Part shown: positions 6,417-58,992 of the stretch, piece by piece
How the letters are laid out: the number at the start of each line of letters is the position of its first letter
Position numbering within the stretch: position 1 is the first letter of the stretch
Source: Candidatus Methanohalarchaeum thermophilum
GTDB lineage: Archaea; Halobacteriota; Methanonatronarchaeia; Methanonatronarchaeales; Methanonatronarchaeaceae
Length of the DNA stretch: 64,000 nt
Assembly (NCBI GenBank): GCA_001914405.1
Contig: MSDW01000001.1
Coordinates: 930,001 to 994,000 of the forward strand
Direction of reading: 5' to 3'
Notes under the pieces: generated by a model
Databases searched by the model: none
Seen by the model: only the letters and a program-made list of their open reading frames with translations
What the model was told of the DNA's origin: nothing
Program-made: the position numbers and the translations under genes

Positions 6417-6829
6417 TATTTGACTGAAAAGACACCTTCCTAAATCTCTGATTAGGTAGGGGTAGTTCACTTGGCTTGTCTAACTCAACAAAAAAACCGA
6501 TTCCCCGTTTTTTGAGGATTGGCTTAACTCTCAGATCCCTACATCGAATGGGATACAAGATAAGATCGAAACCATTTTTGGGGAAGAGTCTTGGTTGCTG
6601 GTGTTGAGGTTACCGGGGAGAACATAAGCGGAACCGATATGAGTTAATATTTGACACTTTCTTCGTGTCCTAATACAGAGCTTTTACCATAAAGCAAATG
6701 GTTACCAGATATTGATCGTGTGTATAAGAGAAGCCGGTGATGGAAAAATCAAACTTCTCTGGATAAAGGGTACATCGGGAAAAACCTTTCTTTTGGAAAA
6801 AATGTGAGTAAGGTTAGAGGTGATCTCAC
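6417..6829 (+). mobile_element. Family B non-coding element, copy B2
   Basis: About 413 bp, preceded by TTTATC at 6411-6416. The left hairpin is nearly identical to solo S1, including its TAGTTCAC end. The body matches B1 and B3 in order: CAGATCCCTACATCGAAT, GAGGTTACCGGGGAGAAC, CATAAGCGGA, a GTGTCCTAAT block, ATGGAAAAATCAAAC and TGGATAAAGG. It ends near GAGGTGATCTCAC. It is the most diverged copy of family B and contains no conserved reading frame. Confidence 0.6.
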
Positions 6830-6883: not shown

Positions 6884-7297
6884 GTGACCTCCTCACCTAC
6901 CTAACCGTTGGTTAGGAAGGTGCTTCCATCCATTTACAAGACCAGTATCCAGGGTTTGGTGCCTTGTTACCGGATGGTCTAACAGAGGCAGACACGGTCT
7001 GCCAGGATATTGCAGGCCTGCAAGGACTTAAATACTGGTTTCCAGGACAGGCACCCATGTCCGTCACTACTATGTGCCTTGGTCCTGGGCTCGGCCACAG
7101 AGCCCCGTTCCCAACCCCACCACGTATCTATTGCGATAGAGCCCTGCACTCAAGTGCTTGCCCACTTAAACTTGGCTATTGGGCTAGGAACCTCTCAACA
7201 AAAAACCCCATTTGCCACCCAAATACAAATACCCTGTGGTAATTCATCCCCCTACCTAAAATCAGAGATTTGAGGAGGGGATTTCTCACCAAACAAA
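6884..7297 (-). mobile_element. Family C non-coding element, copy C1
   Basis: A 414-bp GC-rich element on the minus strand. Read 5'-3' it begins after TTTAAC with TTTGTTTGGTGAGAAATCCC and a left hairpin, and ends GGTGAGGAGGTCAC. The interior contains a GGCAGACCGTGTCTGCC hairpin, CTGG-AAA-CCAG, GCACTTGAGTGC and a GGGCTC...GAGCCC stem. These recur in the copies at 39847 and 55729. Short reading frames cross it, but frame is not kept between copies, so I treat it as non-coding and probably a structured RNA. Confidence 0.65.
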
Positions 7298-7459
7298 GTT
7301 AAATGGAAAAATTTTTATAGAATTTTGGTCACTTTTAGATTTAATTTTTTTGTGCTAGATTGGTTCCTATATATACGCTAAAGTAACTTAACTAAGTAAA
7401 TTTTAATTAATTTGAATTGAATCTAGAGTTGTTAAGAGGTAAGTTAAAGGAGGTTTAGG

Positions 7460-8051: not shown

Positions 8052-9409
8052 ATGCTATATGTTAGGGAAATGAAGAAGTCATTGAGACAGAACCTACGAG
8101 GACTAACTAAACAAGAATATGAGATATTGAAGAAGATGAGTCACAAATCCAAGGATCTATACAACGAAACACTCTACGAAGTAAGACAATATTTCTTCAA
8201 CAACGGAGAATATCTCAGTTATTACAATGCCTATAAGAGACTAAAAGGAGAAAGCGAAAACTACGAAGTCCTAACTTCTCAAATGGCTCAACAAACAATG
8301 AAGCACGTAGACAAAGTGTTTAAGTCATTCTTTAACTTAATAAAGAAAAAAAGAGAAGGTAAATACGATGCTGAAGCAAGTCCACCTAACTACCTAGAAA
8401 AAGACGGACACTTTTCACTAATATTTCCTAAGTCAAAGTTTCCAAGTTAAAGAAGACCACATAAGAATAGGTGTCCCAAGAAGTTTCAGAGAAAAATATG
8501 GGTACACCAAAAAAGAAATCCAGATAGATTTCACTTACGAGAAACTAAAACAAAGCCACATCGACATCAAACAACTACACATAATTCCAAGAGCAAAAGC
8601 ACAATACTTCGAATACAGAATCATATATGAAGAGGAAAAGGAACCAATTGATATAACGGAAGGTACTTGGTTAAGTATCGACTTGAATCTTGATAACCTC
8701 GTCGCTTGTGTTGGCCATCTTGGACGCTCATTCATATTGGATGGGCGATTACTTATAATCGTATAACAGATGGTTTAATAAAGAGGTAGCGAGATTACAG
8801 AGTATTAAAGACAAACAAGGTATTAAAGAAACCACAAAGAGAATAAATAAGCTATTCCGAGATCGAGAAAACTATATACACGATTATTTAAATAAAGCAA
8901 TCAAGGTAATTGTTGAATACTGTAAAGAAGAAAGAATCGAGAAAGTGTTCTGTGGCGATGGAAAGGGTTGGAGACAAGGAATCAATTTAGGTGATAGCAA
9001 CAACGAGAAATTTGTTCAAATATCTTTCGATAAGTTCAAGCAAAAACTCAAGCATAAACTAGAGTTCTATGATATAGAGTTCAAGTTAGTTGATGAATCC
9101 TACACCAGTAAGTGCAGTTTCTTTGATAGCGAGTCTATAGAACATCACGAAGAGTACGTTGGTTCAAGGGTGGAAAGAGGTCTATTTAAAACAAGTGATG
9201 GAGTTTTAATAAATGCTGATGTAAATGGAGCGTTAAATATCGCTAAGAAAGGATTAAAAGAAATAGATGAGGGTAAGCCTGAAACTTTGGGAGTAGGGTG
9301 TAGTGGTGGTGTGGACACGCCAAGGAGAATAAGGAAACCCTTTGGGTTAGGATGCGGCTCAGATATAAGTGAGAGCCTAATTCAAATTTCTTCTGAATTC
9401 CCTTCCTAA
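8052..9409 (+). pseudogene. tnpB: TnpB (OrfB) nuclease, two frameshifts
   Basis: Three pieces in different frames make one TnpB-like protein. Residues from [18 protein letters not shown] run to about 8450, where one extra base shifts the frame before [15 protein letters not shown]. The RuvC-I Asp lies in [13 protein letters not shown] second frameshift near 8750 precedes [14 protein letters not shown]. The 3' part holds [12 protein letters not shown] and the Ruv[18 protein letters not shown] motif. It belongs to the clade without a complete CxxC zinc ribbon. The parent would have been about 440 residues. It is not expected to make active protein. Confidence 0.85.
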
Positions 9410-9436
9410 TCATTTGATTATGTAGGGGTAGTTCAC
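9290..9436 (+). ncRNA. Candidate TnpB omega/guide RNA of element 1
   Basis: The 3' end of tnpB and the following DNA up to the right end (GGTGTGGACACGCC hairpin, AAACCCTTTGGGTT hairpin, then the right-end hairpin finishing GTTCAC) occupy the position where TnpB systems make their guide RNA. Bases after 9436 (ACATTGGTTTTTGG) would be the guide. This is inferred from position and hairpins only. Confidence 0.4.
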
Positions 9437-13790: not shown

Positions 13791-15264
13791 CCATGTGTTT
13801 GACTGAGATGACATTTTCCTAAGTTTTTGATTTGGGTAGTGTGATGAATCAGTCTTAGAAAAAACCTTTAGATATTATAATAAATGTTGGATGTGGTAAG
13901 GTATAGTTGGATGAAAAAGTTACTAAGACAGAACTTTTGAGAGTTAGATAGGCAAGAGTACGAGATATTGAAAAAAGATGAGTCATAAATCTGAAGGCCT
14001 CTGCAATGAAACTTTCTACGAGAAGGAGACAATATTTCTTTGATAACGGTGGATACTTGGACTATTACAATGCCTACAAACGCTTAAAAGGTGAAAGTGA
14101 GAACTACGGGGGCTTGTCTTCATAAATGGCTTAACAAACAATGAAGCATGTGGATAAAGCTTTTAAATTTTTTTTTAAGTTAATAGAGAAGAAAGGAGAA
14201 GAGAGAATAGATATGATGGTGAAGCTAGTTCACCTAGTTACTTGGATAAAGATGGGTATCTTTCATTAATATTTCCAAACCAGAGCTTCTAAGTCAAGTA
14301 AGACTACATTCGAGTTGGTGTTCCGAAAAGTTTCGGAGAAAAATGTGGGTATGATAAAAAGGAAATTCAAATTGAGTTTTTTTATGAAAAGCTTAAACAG
14401 AGCCGCATAGACATTGAGCAGTTACATATTATTCCGAGAGTAAAAGCACAGTATTTTTTGAGTATAGGGTTGTTTATGAGGAGGAGAAGGAACCAGTTGA
14501 GACAAAGGAGGGTGCTTGGTTAGGTATTGATTTGGGATTAGATAGCTTATATAGCCTGTGTTGGCTATCTTGGGCGCTTATTTATTTTATATGGGGGATT
14601 ATTTAAATTGTATAACAGTTGGTGGAACAAAGAGGTAGCTAAGTTAGGTTACAGTCAATAAAAGATAGGCAAGGATTTGATGGAAATACAGAGAGAATAA
14701 ATAAACTATTTAGAGATCGAGATAACTTTTTGCACGATTACTTAAGTAAATCAACTAAGGCAATTGTTGAGTACTGTGAGGAGAATAGAATCGGGAAAGT
14801 GTTTTGTGGTAATGGGAAGGGGTTGGAAACAGGATATAAGCTTGGGGGATAAGAATAACTAGAATTTTGTTGAGATACCTTTTGATAGGTTTAAGCAAAA
14901 ACTCAAACACAAACCAAAGTATTATAGCATTGAATTCATGTTAGTTAATGAAGCATACACAAGCAAATGCAAGGCATTAGCTAACACAGAAGTAAAGAAG
15001 AAACCAAGCTATAGAGGAAAAAGAATTGAAAGAGGACTATACAAAACAAATAATGGAACATATATTAATGCTGACTTAAATGGTGCTTTGAACATGGCTA
15101 AGAAAAGTATGTCCAAAACCAATTTAAAGCTAGGAATAGGAAGTAGTGGCGGTGTGGACACACCAAGAGAATAAAGAAACCCCTTGGGTTAAAATATGGC
15201 GAAAGCATAATTCAAACTTCTCCTGAACCCCCTCCTAATCTTTAATTAGGCAGGATTAGTTCAG
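13791..15264 (+). mobile_element. IS605-group element with decayed TnpB (element 2)
   Basis: The left end follows TTTAT (13786-13790), with GACTGAGATGACATTTTCC and a hairpin ending GATGAATCAG. The right end near 15225-15264 is CCCTCCTAATCTTTAATTAGG then GGATTAGTTCAG. It has the same architecture as element 1 and is more eroded. No TnpA. Confidence 0.7.
13911..15174 (+). pseudogene. tnpB: TnpB nuclease, heavily decayed
   Basis: This is a paralogue of the element 1 TnpB, aligning along its whole length at DNA level. It starts at ATG AAA AAG TTA CTA, with stops and frameshifts throughout. Only the last part is open: residues after 14938 include NEAYTSKCKAL and INADLNGALNMAKK (RuvC-III region), ending GGVDTPRE. 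Not expected to be functional. Confidence 0.8.
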
Positions 15265-33993: not shown

Positions 33994-34947
33994 ATGAAAG
34001 TAACCAAAACCATTGAATCAGGGGCTGTAAACTTAACTAAAAAGAAATAAAAAGAACTTAGAGCAGAATATAAAAACCTACAAAGATTCCTACATAATGG
34101 AGAAGATGTTGAATTACATTCAGCTAACAAACAACAAGCTAAAAGATACTATGATATAGATAAAATTAAGGAAGATAAAGAGTACCCAGTTAGTCTAAGA
34201 AAAGACCTAATTGACTTAGAAAGATGTAGTTCGGATATTTGTGATTACTTTGTGAATGTTCCTTCTGCTCAACGTCGTGGAGGAATAAATATTCCTGTGA
34301 AAACAGGTCGAGAAATAAAAGATAGTTGGGAATTGTGTGAGTCTAAACTATTTAGAAAAAAAGATAATTTTTATCTTAATCTTACCTTCAAGATAGAATC
34401 TAAGGAATTCAAAGAATACAATGGTGTCTTAGGGATTGACCTTGGACTCCGTAATCCTGTAGTAGGAGCGGTGTCGGTGGCACCGTCCAGCCAGTCCAAG
34501 ATCTTTTTTAAAGGAGAAGACATCAAAAAAACCCAAACAAAGTACTATCACCTCAGAAAAAACTCCAAAACAAACAAAGGATGGAAAAAAAGAGGATATA
34601 ACAAAGTAAATGACAAATTACACAAATTAACCACAGAGATAGCGAATTACGCAGAACAGAACAAATTAATTGTCTGTGTAGGTGATTTAGAAGATATACA
34701 GGACCAAGATAAGGGAAGGGCAATGAATCGAAAACTACATCGCTTCCCACACTACACCTTTAAACAAATATTAGAATACAAGTTAAAGGAAAGAGGAATC
34801 AAATATATCGAAGTAAGCGAAGCCTTTACTAGCCAAAGATGCTCACGATGTGGTGAGAAAGGCGATAGGTACAAGGGAAGGTTTAGGTGCTGTAGTTGTG
34901 GCTTGGAAATTGATTCTGATGTTAACGGAGCTAAGAACATAGCATAA
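33994..34947 (+). pseudogene. tnpB: TnpB nuclease with complete catalytic residues but a nonsense codon
   Basis: From ATG 33994 the frame reads MKVTKTIESGAVNLTKKK and stops at TAA 34048-34050. It then stays open to 34947 with all TnpB landmarks: Ruv[14 protein letters not shown], Ruv[15 protein letters not shown], a complete zinc ribbon ([11 protein letters not shown] and [10 protein letters not shown]) and Ruv[16 protein letters not shown] re-initiation at ATG 34252 would give 231 residues with the whole nuclease core but no N-terminal wedge domain. A single substitution separates this gene from an intact one. It lies beside family A copy A1. Confidence 0.85.
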
Positions 34948-35121
34948 CGGGTGCTAGGCAAACCTATGATAAGGTCAATGGTTAGTGCAGGGGGCTTTGT
35001 GGCAAGTCCCGTTAACTCCGTAGCTATGACCTAGCCTCTGTAAAACAAGCTAGATAAGCGGAGGAGAACCCCTTGAACTGGCTGGAAGCCCTTGGACTTT
35101 AGGCCAATGGGAGGATGTCAC
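34948..35121 (+). ncRNA. Candidate TnpB omega/guide RNA scaffold
   Basis: 174 bp directly downstream of tnpB, GC-rich and hairpin-rich, ending GGGAGGATGTCAC. It shares ordered blocks with the family A elements (GCCTCTG...CAAGCT...CTAGATAAGCG...GAACCCCTTGA...CTGGAAGC). In known TnpB systems the guide RNA comes from this position, with the guide beginning after the right end; here that would be TTTGTCTTGTTTATTG. Inferred from position and cross-family similarity. Confidence 0.5.
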
Positions 35122-39063: not shown

Positions 39064-39846
39064 AATTTAACTAAAATTATGTCTTTAAGCATATAACCTT
39101 TCTCGTTTAAGCCATTAATCTAATAAAAAACTATTTCTCTCATAAAAGTCACCTTGTTTCACTAACATTAAAAGATCCTACAGCTTCTATTTAGAAAATT
39201 CGACTTTTAATCTACATTTTGAATACTTATCTTAAATAAAAAGATATTTTTAATAAAAACTATTAAAAAAGTATTTACTAACAACTGACATTATTAAATT
39301 ATTAACTTAGTTATTCAGTTTTTGCCTTATATTCCTAATGGTAGGATTGGTTACTCCACAGACTTTGGGTATCTCTTTCTGTTTTCGCCGCTGACCTAAC
39401 CCCTGAAGAAAGCTCTTGACAAAGTAGTGTCACCAGCAAAAAATGAACTTGAAGAAAGGATAGACAAACTGGGTCTGGAGGTATTTGAAACTGGGGTGCT
39501 GCACGAAGAAATCAGAGCAAAACTCGAGTAAGTTCACCAAAAACCTAACAAAAACACACTTAAATGTAAGCATCTAAGCTCACACGAGAAATGATTCAGC
39601 TATATACACCTTTTCACCTATAAACCCCAAACAAAAGCACCTTGAAATGATCTACTGCCTCTCTCTCTTTTTATGTTTTTTGGATAAAACTAACAAAGAT
39701 CTCAACACCATTGCGGTGATGTGTGTATTACATATGACACCGCGGTGTAGAACATGTGAGACAGAACTTTAAATGATATTATCTGATAGTCACACTTTTT
39801 GATGAAAGTAAAGATAAAAAAAATCTTTAATACTTTTATTTTTAAC
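39064..39846. other. Intergenic region with gene scraps
   Basis: No intact gene. On the minus strand 39307-39400 encodes RRKQKEIPKVCGVTNPTIRN, which matches the C-terminal DNA-recognition helix pair of TFB proteins. On the plus strand 39420-39530 a frame reads SPAKNELEERIDKLGLEVFE with no start, of unknown origin. Palindromic bases near 39715-39760 (ACACCGCGGTG) were also seen. Confidence 0.45.
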
Positions 39847-40259
39847 TTTGTTTGGTGAGAAATCCCTTTCCTCAAATCTCTGATTTAGGTAGGGGGATGA
39901 ATTACCACAGGGTATTTGTATTTGGGTGGCCAATGGGGTTTTTTGAGAGGTTCTTAGTCCAATAGTCGAGTTTGGGTGGGCAAGCACTTGAGTGCAGGGC
40001 TCTATCGCGATAGATAGGTGGTGGGGTTGGGAACGGGGCTTTGTGTGACCGAGCCCAGGACCAAGGCACATAGTAGTGATGGACATGGCCATAAGTACTG
40101 GAAACCAGTATTTAAGTCCTTGTGGGCCTGTAATATCCTGGCAGACCGTGTCTGTCTCTGTTAGACCATTCGGTAACAAGGCACCAAATCTTGGATACTG
40201 GTCTTGTAAATGGATGGAAGCACCATCCTAATCAAGGATTAGGTAGGTGAGGAGGTCAC
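39847..40259 (+). mobile_element. Family C non-coding element, copy C2
   Basis: 413 bp after TTTAAC (39841-39846). Left end: GGTGAGAAATCCCTTTCC with hairpin, then GGGGGATGAATTAC. Right end: GGAAGCACCATCCTAATC, hairpin, GGTGAGGAGGTCAC. Hairpins shared with C1 and C3: GCACTTGAGTGC, TACTGG-AAA-CCAGTA and GGCAGAC-CGT-GTCTGTC (with a G-U in place of a G-C found in the other copies). Frames crossing it shift relative to C1, so it is non-coding. Confidence 0.65.
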
Positions 40260-40313
40260 GTATAAATAGATTATAATAAAGAATAATGTTATTTTTTAAT
40301 CCGTTTGGTTTTT

Positions 40314-55527: not shown

Positions 55528-55728
55528 TCTTTTATAAGTTCCATTTATTTGGGTTTTTTGAAATATTTATCAATAGTTATTTTGGTGTATTATTTACTAA
55601 GTAGGTGTAAGAGGGTTTTGAAAGAAGTAAGGGTTTGTTGCAGGAAAGAAAGGTTGGGGGTATTGGTTGGGGTAAACTAAATTTTGTTCTTTTCGTTAGT
55701 TACTTCAATAAGTGAAAGAAATTTTAAC

Positions 55729-56142
55729 TTATTTGGTCTTAATCTCCTTCCTTTTTTTGATAGGATGGGAGGGGGAATCATTACAAGATATTTGTATTTG
55801 GGGAGCTTCAATAGGGGGGTTTTTGTTGGGAGGTTCTTAGCGTATAAGCCAAGTTTGAGTGGGCAAGCACTTGAGTGCAGGGCTCTATCGCAATAGATAT
55901 GTGGTGGGGTTGGGAACGGGGCTCTGTGACCGAGCCTAGGACCAAGGTACATGATGGTGATGGACATGGGTGCCTGTCCTGGAAACCAGTATTTAAGTCC
56001 TTGTGGGACCTGCAAGATCCTGGCAGACCGTGTCTGCCTTTGCTAGATCATTCGGTAACAAGGCACCAAATCTTGGATACTGGTCCTGTGAATGGATGGA
56101 AGCACCTTCCTAAATCTTTGATTAGGTAGTTGAGGAGGTCAC
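55729..56142 (+). mobile_element. Family C non-coding element, copy C3
   Basis: 414 bp after TTTAAC, with the same hairpins as C1 and C2: GCACTTGAGTGC, GGCTC...GAGCC, CTGG-AAA-CCAG and GGCAGAC-CGT-GTCTGCC. The left-end hairpin is degenerate (CCTTCCTTTTTTTGATAGG). The right end is GGAAGCACCTTCC, hairpin, TGAGGAGGTCAC. Confidence 0.65.
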
Positions 56143-56303: not shown

Positions 56304-56619
56304 CTTGGTGGTTGAGAAGACCCCTTACTTAATCTCTTGATTAGGGAGGGGATGAATCAACCTATAAGGCTTAAGTGGCTCCGTGTTTTAGGTTTTGGTG
56401 TGAGCTAGGCAGGGGTTGTGGCCGAAGGCTAAAGCCCGTGGACAGATTGAGAGTTCTGGTTACCAAGCTCGCTGGATGAATCGGGAACCTCCCCATAGAA
56501 AGCTTCCTAGATAAGGGCCGCCCGGGACTGAGATTGGATGACGGCGGTAGGAAGTGAACCCCTTTGACTCTGGAAGCATCCTTCCAAAATCCCTTGATTT
56601 TGGTAGGGGAGGAAGTCAC
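56304..56619 (+). mobile_element. Family A non-coding element, copy A3 (candidate solitary omega RNA)
   Basis: 316 bp after GGTTTATC; nearly identical to A2, with small indels (CCATAGAAAGCTTCC versus CCAAAAAGCTTC; CCCTTGATTTTGG in the right hairpin). The right end GGGGAGGAAGTCAC is followed by ATCTTTCTTGTCGG as possible guide. Indels that break the crossing frame while hairpins persist support an RNA rather than a protein. Confidence 0.65.
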
Positions 56620-56893
56620 ATCTTTCTTGTCGGTTATTCTAAATAAGAAAATATTGTTACATGGGGTATTGTCTTGAGTTTTTGGTTATTGTGGTAGAAA
56701 AATTGGTGGGTTTTTCTGGGTTTTTATGGTTTTTTTAAATTTTTTGGTTGATTTGTTTTTGTTTTTTTGTTTTTGGGTTTATTTGTTTTAAAGAGAAGTT
56801 TTTCAAATTGATTTGATTTTTTTATGAGTTATCTAAGTTTGTTAGGTTAGTGATGTATAGGGATTTAAATAGCATGTTATACATATGGGTTAA
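56620..56893. other. TG-rich intergenic region and promoter
   Basis: The plus strand is T/G-rich (for example GGTGGGTTTTTCTGGG), without genes. The right end holds the methyltransferase promoter. Confidence 0.4.
56863..56870 (+). promoter_or_regulatory. Candidate TATA box of the methyltransferase/corrinoid operon
   Basis: ATTTAAAT sits 24-31 bp before TTG 56894, the spacing expected for a transcript that begins at or next to that codon, so the mRNA is probably leaderless. Confidence 0.4.
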
Positions 56894-58605: not shown

Positions 58606-58992
58606 CTTAAACCCACCTACTATCTACTTTTTATTACTTATTTCTTTATTCAATATTAGAAAAATCTCTTTATTCAATATTAAAAAAGAGCAATATTTAT
58701 ACATAGTAGAGTAAGGGAGAGAACTTCAGGATTGGCCATGTGGATCACTTAACTCTTTAAGGTCCGAAGGTGATTTTAGTTCCTGAGTATTTTTTGGTAC
58801 TTTTTTCTTAAGTTTTTAACTTATTTGGTGAGAAATCCCCTTCCTAAATCTCTGATTAGGTAGGGGTAGTTCACGTTGATTATGAGGGGATTGTATTATA
58901 GTGGAAATTATTAGTGAAAATAAAAAATAAGTATTAAATGGTTGTTTAGAGCATCTTAAATTGGTTTTTAATTTAATTTGAGGTTTTAGCTA
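58606..58992. other. Intergenic region with solo hairpin S5
   Basis: No gene. Includes a TTCAATATTAGAAAAATCTC tandem-like repeat (58651-58688), the solo hairpin at 58821-58874 and the DNA ligase promoter. Confidence 0.45.
58821..58874 (+). repeat. Solo IS605-type end hairpin S5
   Basis: After TTTAAC: TTATTTGGTGAGAAATCCCC, hairpin TTCCTAAATCTCTGATTAGG, then TAGGGGTAGTTCAC. The left part matches family C and the right part matches the TnpB elements. Confidence 0.6.

Follow-up and report, generated by a model that had tools for sequence, protein, structure and literature searches.

A tnpB-less PATE carrying a predicted enlarged TnpB omegaRNA in Candidatus Methanohalarchaeum thermophilum

A 414-nt sequence is present three times in the window (the whole stretch of 64,000 nt analysed here), which raised the question of what the element is and at which level it is conserved. 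All three copies, proposed in the original prediction, were confirmed to the base when their ends were mapped independently (Table 1). With one copy as the BLAST query, 46 matching places were found in the genome (2.14 Mb, four contigs), far beyond chance. Approximately 44 copies with lengths of ~403–421 nt were recognized, falling into three homologous sub-families with common ends. The window copies belonged to sub-family C (76–92% identity), and sub-family E had identities of 78–93%. The 13 copies of sub-family D were 95–99% identical, which indicates that the element was recently mobile. Boundaries were set by aligning more than 30 copies with unrelated flanks; both were sharp, and the 3' end was GGTCAC. 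The sub-families shared one anatomy: beside the TTTAAC flank lay a subterminal hairpin, behind which the interior was structured and led to a terminal hairpin, with GAGGAGGTCAC as the element end. The 5' flank of nearly all intact C, D and E copies was TTAAC, almost always as TTTAAC, while one copy was preceded by TTTATC. The flanking DNA was different at every copy and target duplication was absent.

Table 1. Features of the queried copy and positions of the other two copies, in window coordinates.
Feature	Position	Strand	Basis or remark
Insertion target / predicted TAM TTTAAC	39841..39846	+	Left flank of queried copy
Complete family-C element, PATE with expanded omegaRNA, 413 nt	39847..40259	+	Alignment of copies
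Left-end subterminal hairpin	39864..39896	+	80–95% identical to left ends of resident/relative tnpA/tnpB elements
Predicted omegaRNA core	39948..40129	+	Covariance model R1, 180 bits; homologous to tnpB-linked omegaRNAs
Hairpin GGGCTT..GAGCCC	40036..40056	+	Covariation
Loop GTGACC, pseudoknot 5' strand	40045-40050	+	In hairpin GGGCTT..GAGCCC; covariation
CGU hairpin GGCAGAC-CGT-GTCTGTC	40140..40156	+	Compensatory changes; segment absent from tnpB-linked omegaRNAs
Right-end terminal hairpin	40221..40249	+	Type as in tnpB-element right ends
GGTCAC, element end, pseudoknot 3' strand (TEM)	40254..40259	+	Complementary to loop 40045-40050; co-varies
Predicted guide segment, ~16 nt of flanking DNA	40260..40275	+	From omegaRNA architecture (PMC8612924); differs per copy
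Second window copy	6884..7297	-	TTTAAC at 7298-7303, minus strand
Third window copy	55729..56142	+	TTTAAC at 55723-55728

The genome was rich in IS200/IS605 genes, with 90 TnpB-domain and 27 TnpA matches, many of them broken. Several of these resident elements had left ends with 80–90% identity to the left ends of the 414-nt family (80–95% when tnpA/tnpB elements of a relative, archaeon SCG-AAA382B04, contig PZKD01000125.1, are included), and their right ends were of the same type. One tnpA element sharing the C/E-type left end encoded an intact TnpA (L127). The subterminal palindromes resembled those found in the genome's own IS605-type elements, a fixed short target lay alongside without being duplicated, and the queried copy was, at 413 nt, too short for a transposase, with ORFs that had no Pfam match. 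Empty sites agreed with this. For a D copy within iscB (L020, C2:122080-123338), the joined flanks aligned across the junction with the uninterrupted iscB of the relative, leaving one extra base in a diverged, frameshifted iscB. A 379-nt PATE of a sister family was located after TTTATC inside the tnpB of L127 (C1:1549500-1552300), and its omission restored a 376-codon frame. Both sites indicate precise insertion. The PATE-defining features given for haloarchaea (Haloquadratum walsbyi; PMC3119063) match those of the 414-nt element. Judged by its sequence, the element is a PATE, i.e., a non-autonomous transposon of the IS200/IS605 family that has kept its ends and lost tnpA and tnpB. Phage and plasmid records were also searched and contained no match.

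Other elements were observed nearby. A different PATE-like element, recognizable by the hairpin CCCCTTACTTAATCTCTTGATTAGGGAGGGG at its left end and by a right end that matched, was located directly 3' of the third copy (~56310-56620). The sequence GGTAGGGGTAGTTCAC, with a chance expectation of 0, marked the right ends of other TnpB-type elements at 538-553, 6455-6470, 9421-9436 and 58859-58874; these probably represent further PATE or tnpB families. The window also contained fragments of the PF07282 TnpB domain (8945-9409, 14881-15096 and 34252-34947), the last of which was followed by the element end GAGGATGTCAC at 35111-35121. In L128 (~1350-1500), a short ribbon-helix-helix-like ORF (MKTKSITIREDQIEWLEKNHINLSSLVREKIDEE...) was found upstream of that element's intact tnpB.

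The identity of the interior was addressed with a covariance model built from the element core (R1; 181 positions, 41 pairs) and searched against the whole genome. R1 yielded 44 expanded matches of at least 160 nt, for 0/44 of which the 250 nt upstream contained a TnpB domain, and nine compact matches of 107–110 nt (39.7–58.2 bits). All nine compact matches had a PF07282 domain immediately 5' of them in the same orientation, and in eight cases the distance was exactly 7 nt. The complete element found in the relative had the left end, a gene for a 364-aa TnpB and, at the 3' end of that gene, an R1 match that ended in GTTCAC (55 bits; genome-wide E=2e-13). Since R1 finds both the expanded tnpB-less copies and the compact versions 3' of TnpB domains, the interior is, by homology, a TnpB omegaRNA (reRNA) on the strand from TTTAAC to GGTCAC, with tnpB lost and extra hairpins gained. 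Homology to the RNA at the tnpB 3' end thus extended over both genomes, and a pseudoknot joined a hairpin loop with the transposon end beside the guide. None of the 44 expanded copies adjoined or overlapped tnpB, and they are therefore termed omegaRNA-derived and stand-alone. Compared with the compact form, the expanded form had ~60 nt more inside the first helix, a CCAAGG/CCTTGG helix with a larger apical part and ~95 nt more before the terminal hairpin. In total, it exceeded the tnpB-linked omegaRNAs by ~150–200 nt; its fit into TnpB is uncertain, which counts against the explanation favoured below.

IscB omegaRNAs lie on the same strand as iscB and have the guide at their 5' end. An RNA of the IscB/HEARO type was considered, since a D-like left end adjoins iscB of the relative, and was rejected on strand and Rfam evidence. 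The strand preference was that of the TnpB type, and the iscB orientation in L094 likewise disagreed with an IscB omegaRNA. Rfam gave no match at the gathering threshold or at E<=5, including to sotRNA (RF02656/RF02657) and HEARO (RF02033). In the relative, iscB copies with D-like ends were found beside TTTATC (L094, L096).

The hairpins reported in the original prediction (GGCAGAC-CGT-GTCTGYC, CTGG-AAA-CCAG, GGGCTY/GAGCCC and the sequence GCACTTGAGTGC) were all found in the three window copies. They had been called compensated, which did not hold within these copies, where only G-C to G-U changes occurred; true two-sided changes appeared once the comparison took in sub-families D and E as well as the copy from the relative, so that pairing-preserving changes were present in the larger alignment. 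GCACTTGAGTGC as a simple hairpin was rejected, as its pairing is broken in copies reading GCACTTGAGCAC; instead, the overlapping 9-bp helix GUUUAAGUG/CACUUGAGU was kept, with changes on both sides. The consensus folding energy was -46.8 kcal/mol on the sense strand (TTTAAC to GGTCAC) and -15.1 on the other strand, a bias that recurred in every sub-family, as is expected when the real RNA strand tolerates G-U pairs.

In a six-helix structure, 85% of cells were paired. Shuffling gave 82% (0/500 reached the observed value) and sliding the structure no more than 57%, and two-sided changes numbered 32 vs 14 expected. This structure was made by hand, the outer pairs of helix 3 were weak and a few helix-edge pairs failed. 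The element end GGTCAC paired with the loop GTGACC as a pseudoknot, and loop and end changed together (GTGATC/GGTTAC, GTGAAC/GTTCAC, GTGACA/TGTCAC, CTGGCT/AGTCAG). Its pairs were kept in 68/72 cases across 12 distinct versions, with 32/20000 shuffles as good. The CGU hairpin, present in the expanded form only, co-varied as GGCAGAC/GTCTGCC, GGCGAAC/GTTCGCC and GCCGAGT/GCTCGGC (12 distinct versions; 6/20000 shuffles as good); it was counted by motif because MAFFT, in aligning the 3' module, placed sub-family E out of register. The shuffles leave relatedness in, so these pairing statistics are strong but short of final. Sub-family E, and likewise a small number of C copies, had partly broken pairs, as in decaying copies; these count against the favoured explanation. 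Because covariation reaches a hairpin exclusive to the expanded form, and because there is a strong preference for one strand, the alignments argue strongly that the RNA itself was under selection. The RNA-level conservation originally proposed was thus borne out by folding bias, covariation and lack of a conserved frame, while the identity as an IS200/IS605 transposon with a TnpB omegaRNA homologue had been missed.

Among 295 genomes of the phylum, R1 detected the RNA only in the own genome and in the one relative, which is of the same family; a match in one further genome (E=0.009) was judged to be due to chance. In the relative, a single stand-alone homologue in another genus was also observed (L092, C122:14892-15079), in which the interior was better kept than the ends and the terminal hairpin was missing. 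This suggests an old copy or a domesticated RNA. The own genome encoded mcrA, and the organism is therefore very probably a methanogen.

The own genome encoded a 364-aa TnpB (L070) with an intact frame and a matching compact omegaRNA. The TnpBs of the two genomes were 82% identical and had sequence relatives among the TnpB and Cas12f chains of known structure; a genome search for near TnpB relatives returned archaeon SCG-AAA382B04 alone, which was already known. TnpBs with a family-like omegaRNA (L045, L049, L050, L052, L053, L070, L125) had Gly at the RuvC-II Glu position, whereas the canonical Glu was kept in the other TnpBs of the own genome. This Gly counts against the favoured explanation. 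Inspection by eye revealed that L049, L053 and L070 have an alternative Glu ahead of the zinc finger; in L070, this Glu is six residues away from the first zinc-finger CxxC. Since such a Glu fits the 'rearranged' RuvC-II arrangement (PMC10711439), the matching TnpBs may well be active despite the Gly.

As described in the available text on the PATEs of Haloquadratum walsbyi (PMC3119063) and the PATE-like element of Halanaerobium (PMC7290912), these elements resemble the 414-nt element in their near-terminal IS605-type palindromes without terminal inverted repeats, lack of target duplication, transposase-less length and homogeneous multi-copy expansion. The Halanaerobium element retains, according to the same text, the last 58 nt of tnpB and the whole right end. 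That text describes these PATEs without an omegaRNA, whereas in the 414-nt element an omegaRNA is recognized, enlarged and co-varying. A pseudoknot and a right-end hairpin have been described for the omegaRNAs of ISDra2 (PMC10097598) and Halobacterium (PMC12558985). The 414-nt element shares with TnpB omegaRNAs (ISDra2, PMC8612924, PMC10097598; Halobacterium sotRNA, PMC12558985, RF02656/RF02657) the strand, the terminal hairpin and the loop-to-end pseudoknot just before the guide, and is homologous by covariance model to the tnpB-linked omegaRNAs of its own genome. It differs in its scaffold (~310 vs ~145 nt), added hairpins, absence of tnpB and absence of an Rfam match. A 489-bp PATE of virus HRTV-DL1 and Halorubrum, of which one end is expressed, has been proposed to yield an ncRNA (PMC10544981); the available text does not connect it with TnpB by structure or evolution, and the lineage differs. 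PATEs, omegaRNAs and ncRNA from PATEs (PMC10544981) are already known. What is new are tnpB-less elements in high copy number carrying an enlarged, covarying omegaRNA; the open-access literature searched contained no account of PATEs that carry such RNAs.

As a whole, the element is with good confidence explained as a PATE with an enlarged TnpB omegaRNA that is moved by TnpA and guides TnpB in trans. Most likely, both steps depend on resident proteins, of which the TnpB step is inferred. A TnpA encoded elsewhere in the genome would recognize the two end hairpins and move the element. The element would be transcribed into an RNA ending in ~16 nt of flanking DNA, the putative guide, and the resident 364-aa TnpB with its matching compact omegaRNA could bind this expanded RNA. 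TnpB would then be directed to TTTAAC plus guide, i.e., to the empty donor site, so that the copy would be retained and spread. Guiding in trans is plausible because TnpB accepts reRNA from a separate plasmid (PMC8612924).

It is unlikely that the PATE is inert, with only the end hairpins mattering as single-stranded DNA substrates of TnpA and the interior being a functionless leftover of the tnpB omegaRNA. The ends are indeed conserved, helices are broken in some copies, and mobile PATEs without any known RNA cargo have been described (PMC3119063). However, pairing in the interior helices and the pseudoknot is preserved, for one strand only, by compensatory changes and G-U substitutions, covariation also occurs in the hairpin exclusive to the tnpB-less form, and the single-copy homologue in the other genus has kept its interior better than its ends. 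That homologue, well kept without its terminal hairpin, and the large added domains would suit an RNA recruited elsewhere, as a regulatory RNA, with a non-TnpB partner or for RNA-guided binding without cutting. Precedents are a regulatory small RNA from the Salmonella IS200 tnpA (PMC12594629) and a Halobacterium PATE reported to be active as an ncRNA (PMC10544981). We consider recruitment just as improbable as inertness: TnpB binding would predict retention both of the guide-adjacent architecture and of the pseudoknot formed with the element end, and both are retained; in addition, the near-identity of the 13 D copies speaks for recent mobility.

A protein-coding element or pseudogene is extremely improbable. 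Open frames, the longest with 129 codons, do cross single copies; however, the longest frame varies among copies, stops are numerous and copy lengths differ by non-multiples of three. The original prediction that open frames shift between copies proved correct, as both frame and length differed, and two antisense ORFs had no Pfam match.

Beyond the favoured reading of a PATE with a TnpB omegaRNA acting in trans, it is possible, if somewhat doubtful, that a 'guide-only' transposon has arisen, which dropped the nuclease gene, enlarged its scaffold once free of coding overlap and reached ~44 copies. If so, a few resident TnpBs would be turned into a genome-wide multi-guide system, and the added RNA domains might outcompete the cognate compact omegaRNAs or recruit another partner. 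TnpB and its omegaRNA have been proposed as the ancestor of Cas12 and its crRNA, and uncoupling of the guide RNA from the nuclease gene is a key step toward Cas12. The elements described here provide a natural case in which stand-alone omegaRNAs are more numerous than tnpB genes with a matching RNA, and in which the constraint on RNA structure appears to persist, with growth, after the loss of tnpB. They make the selection and action of TnpB guides in trans directly testable, and suggest that other PATEs might be carriers of stand-alone omegaRNAs.
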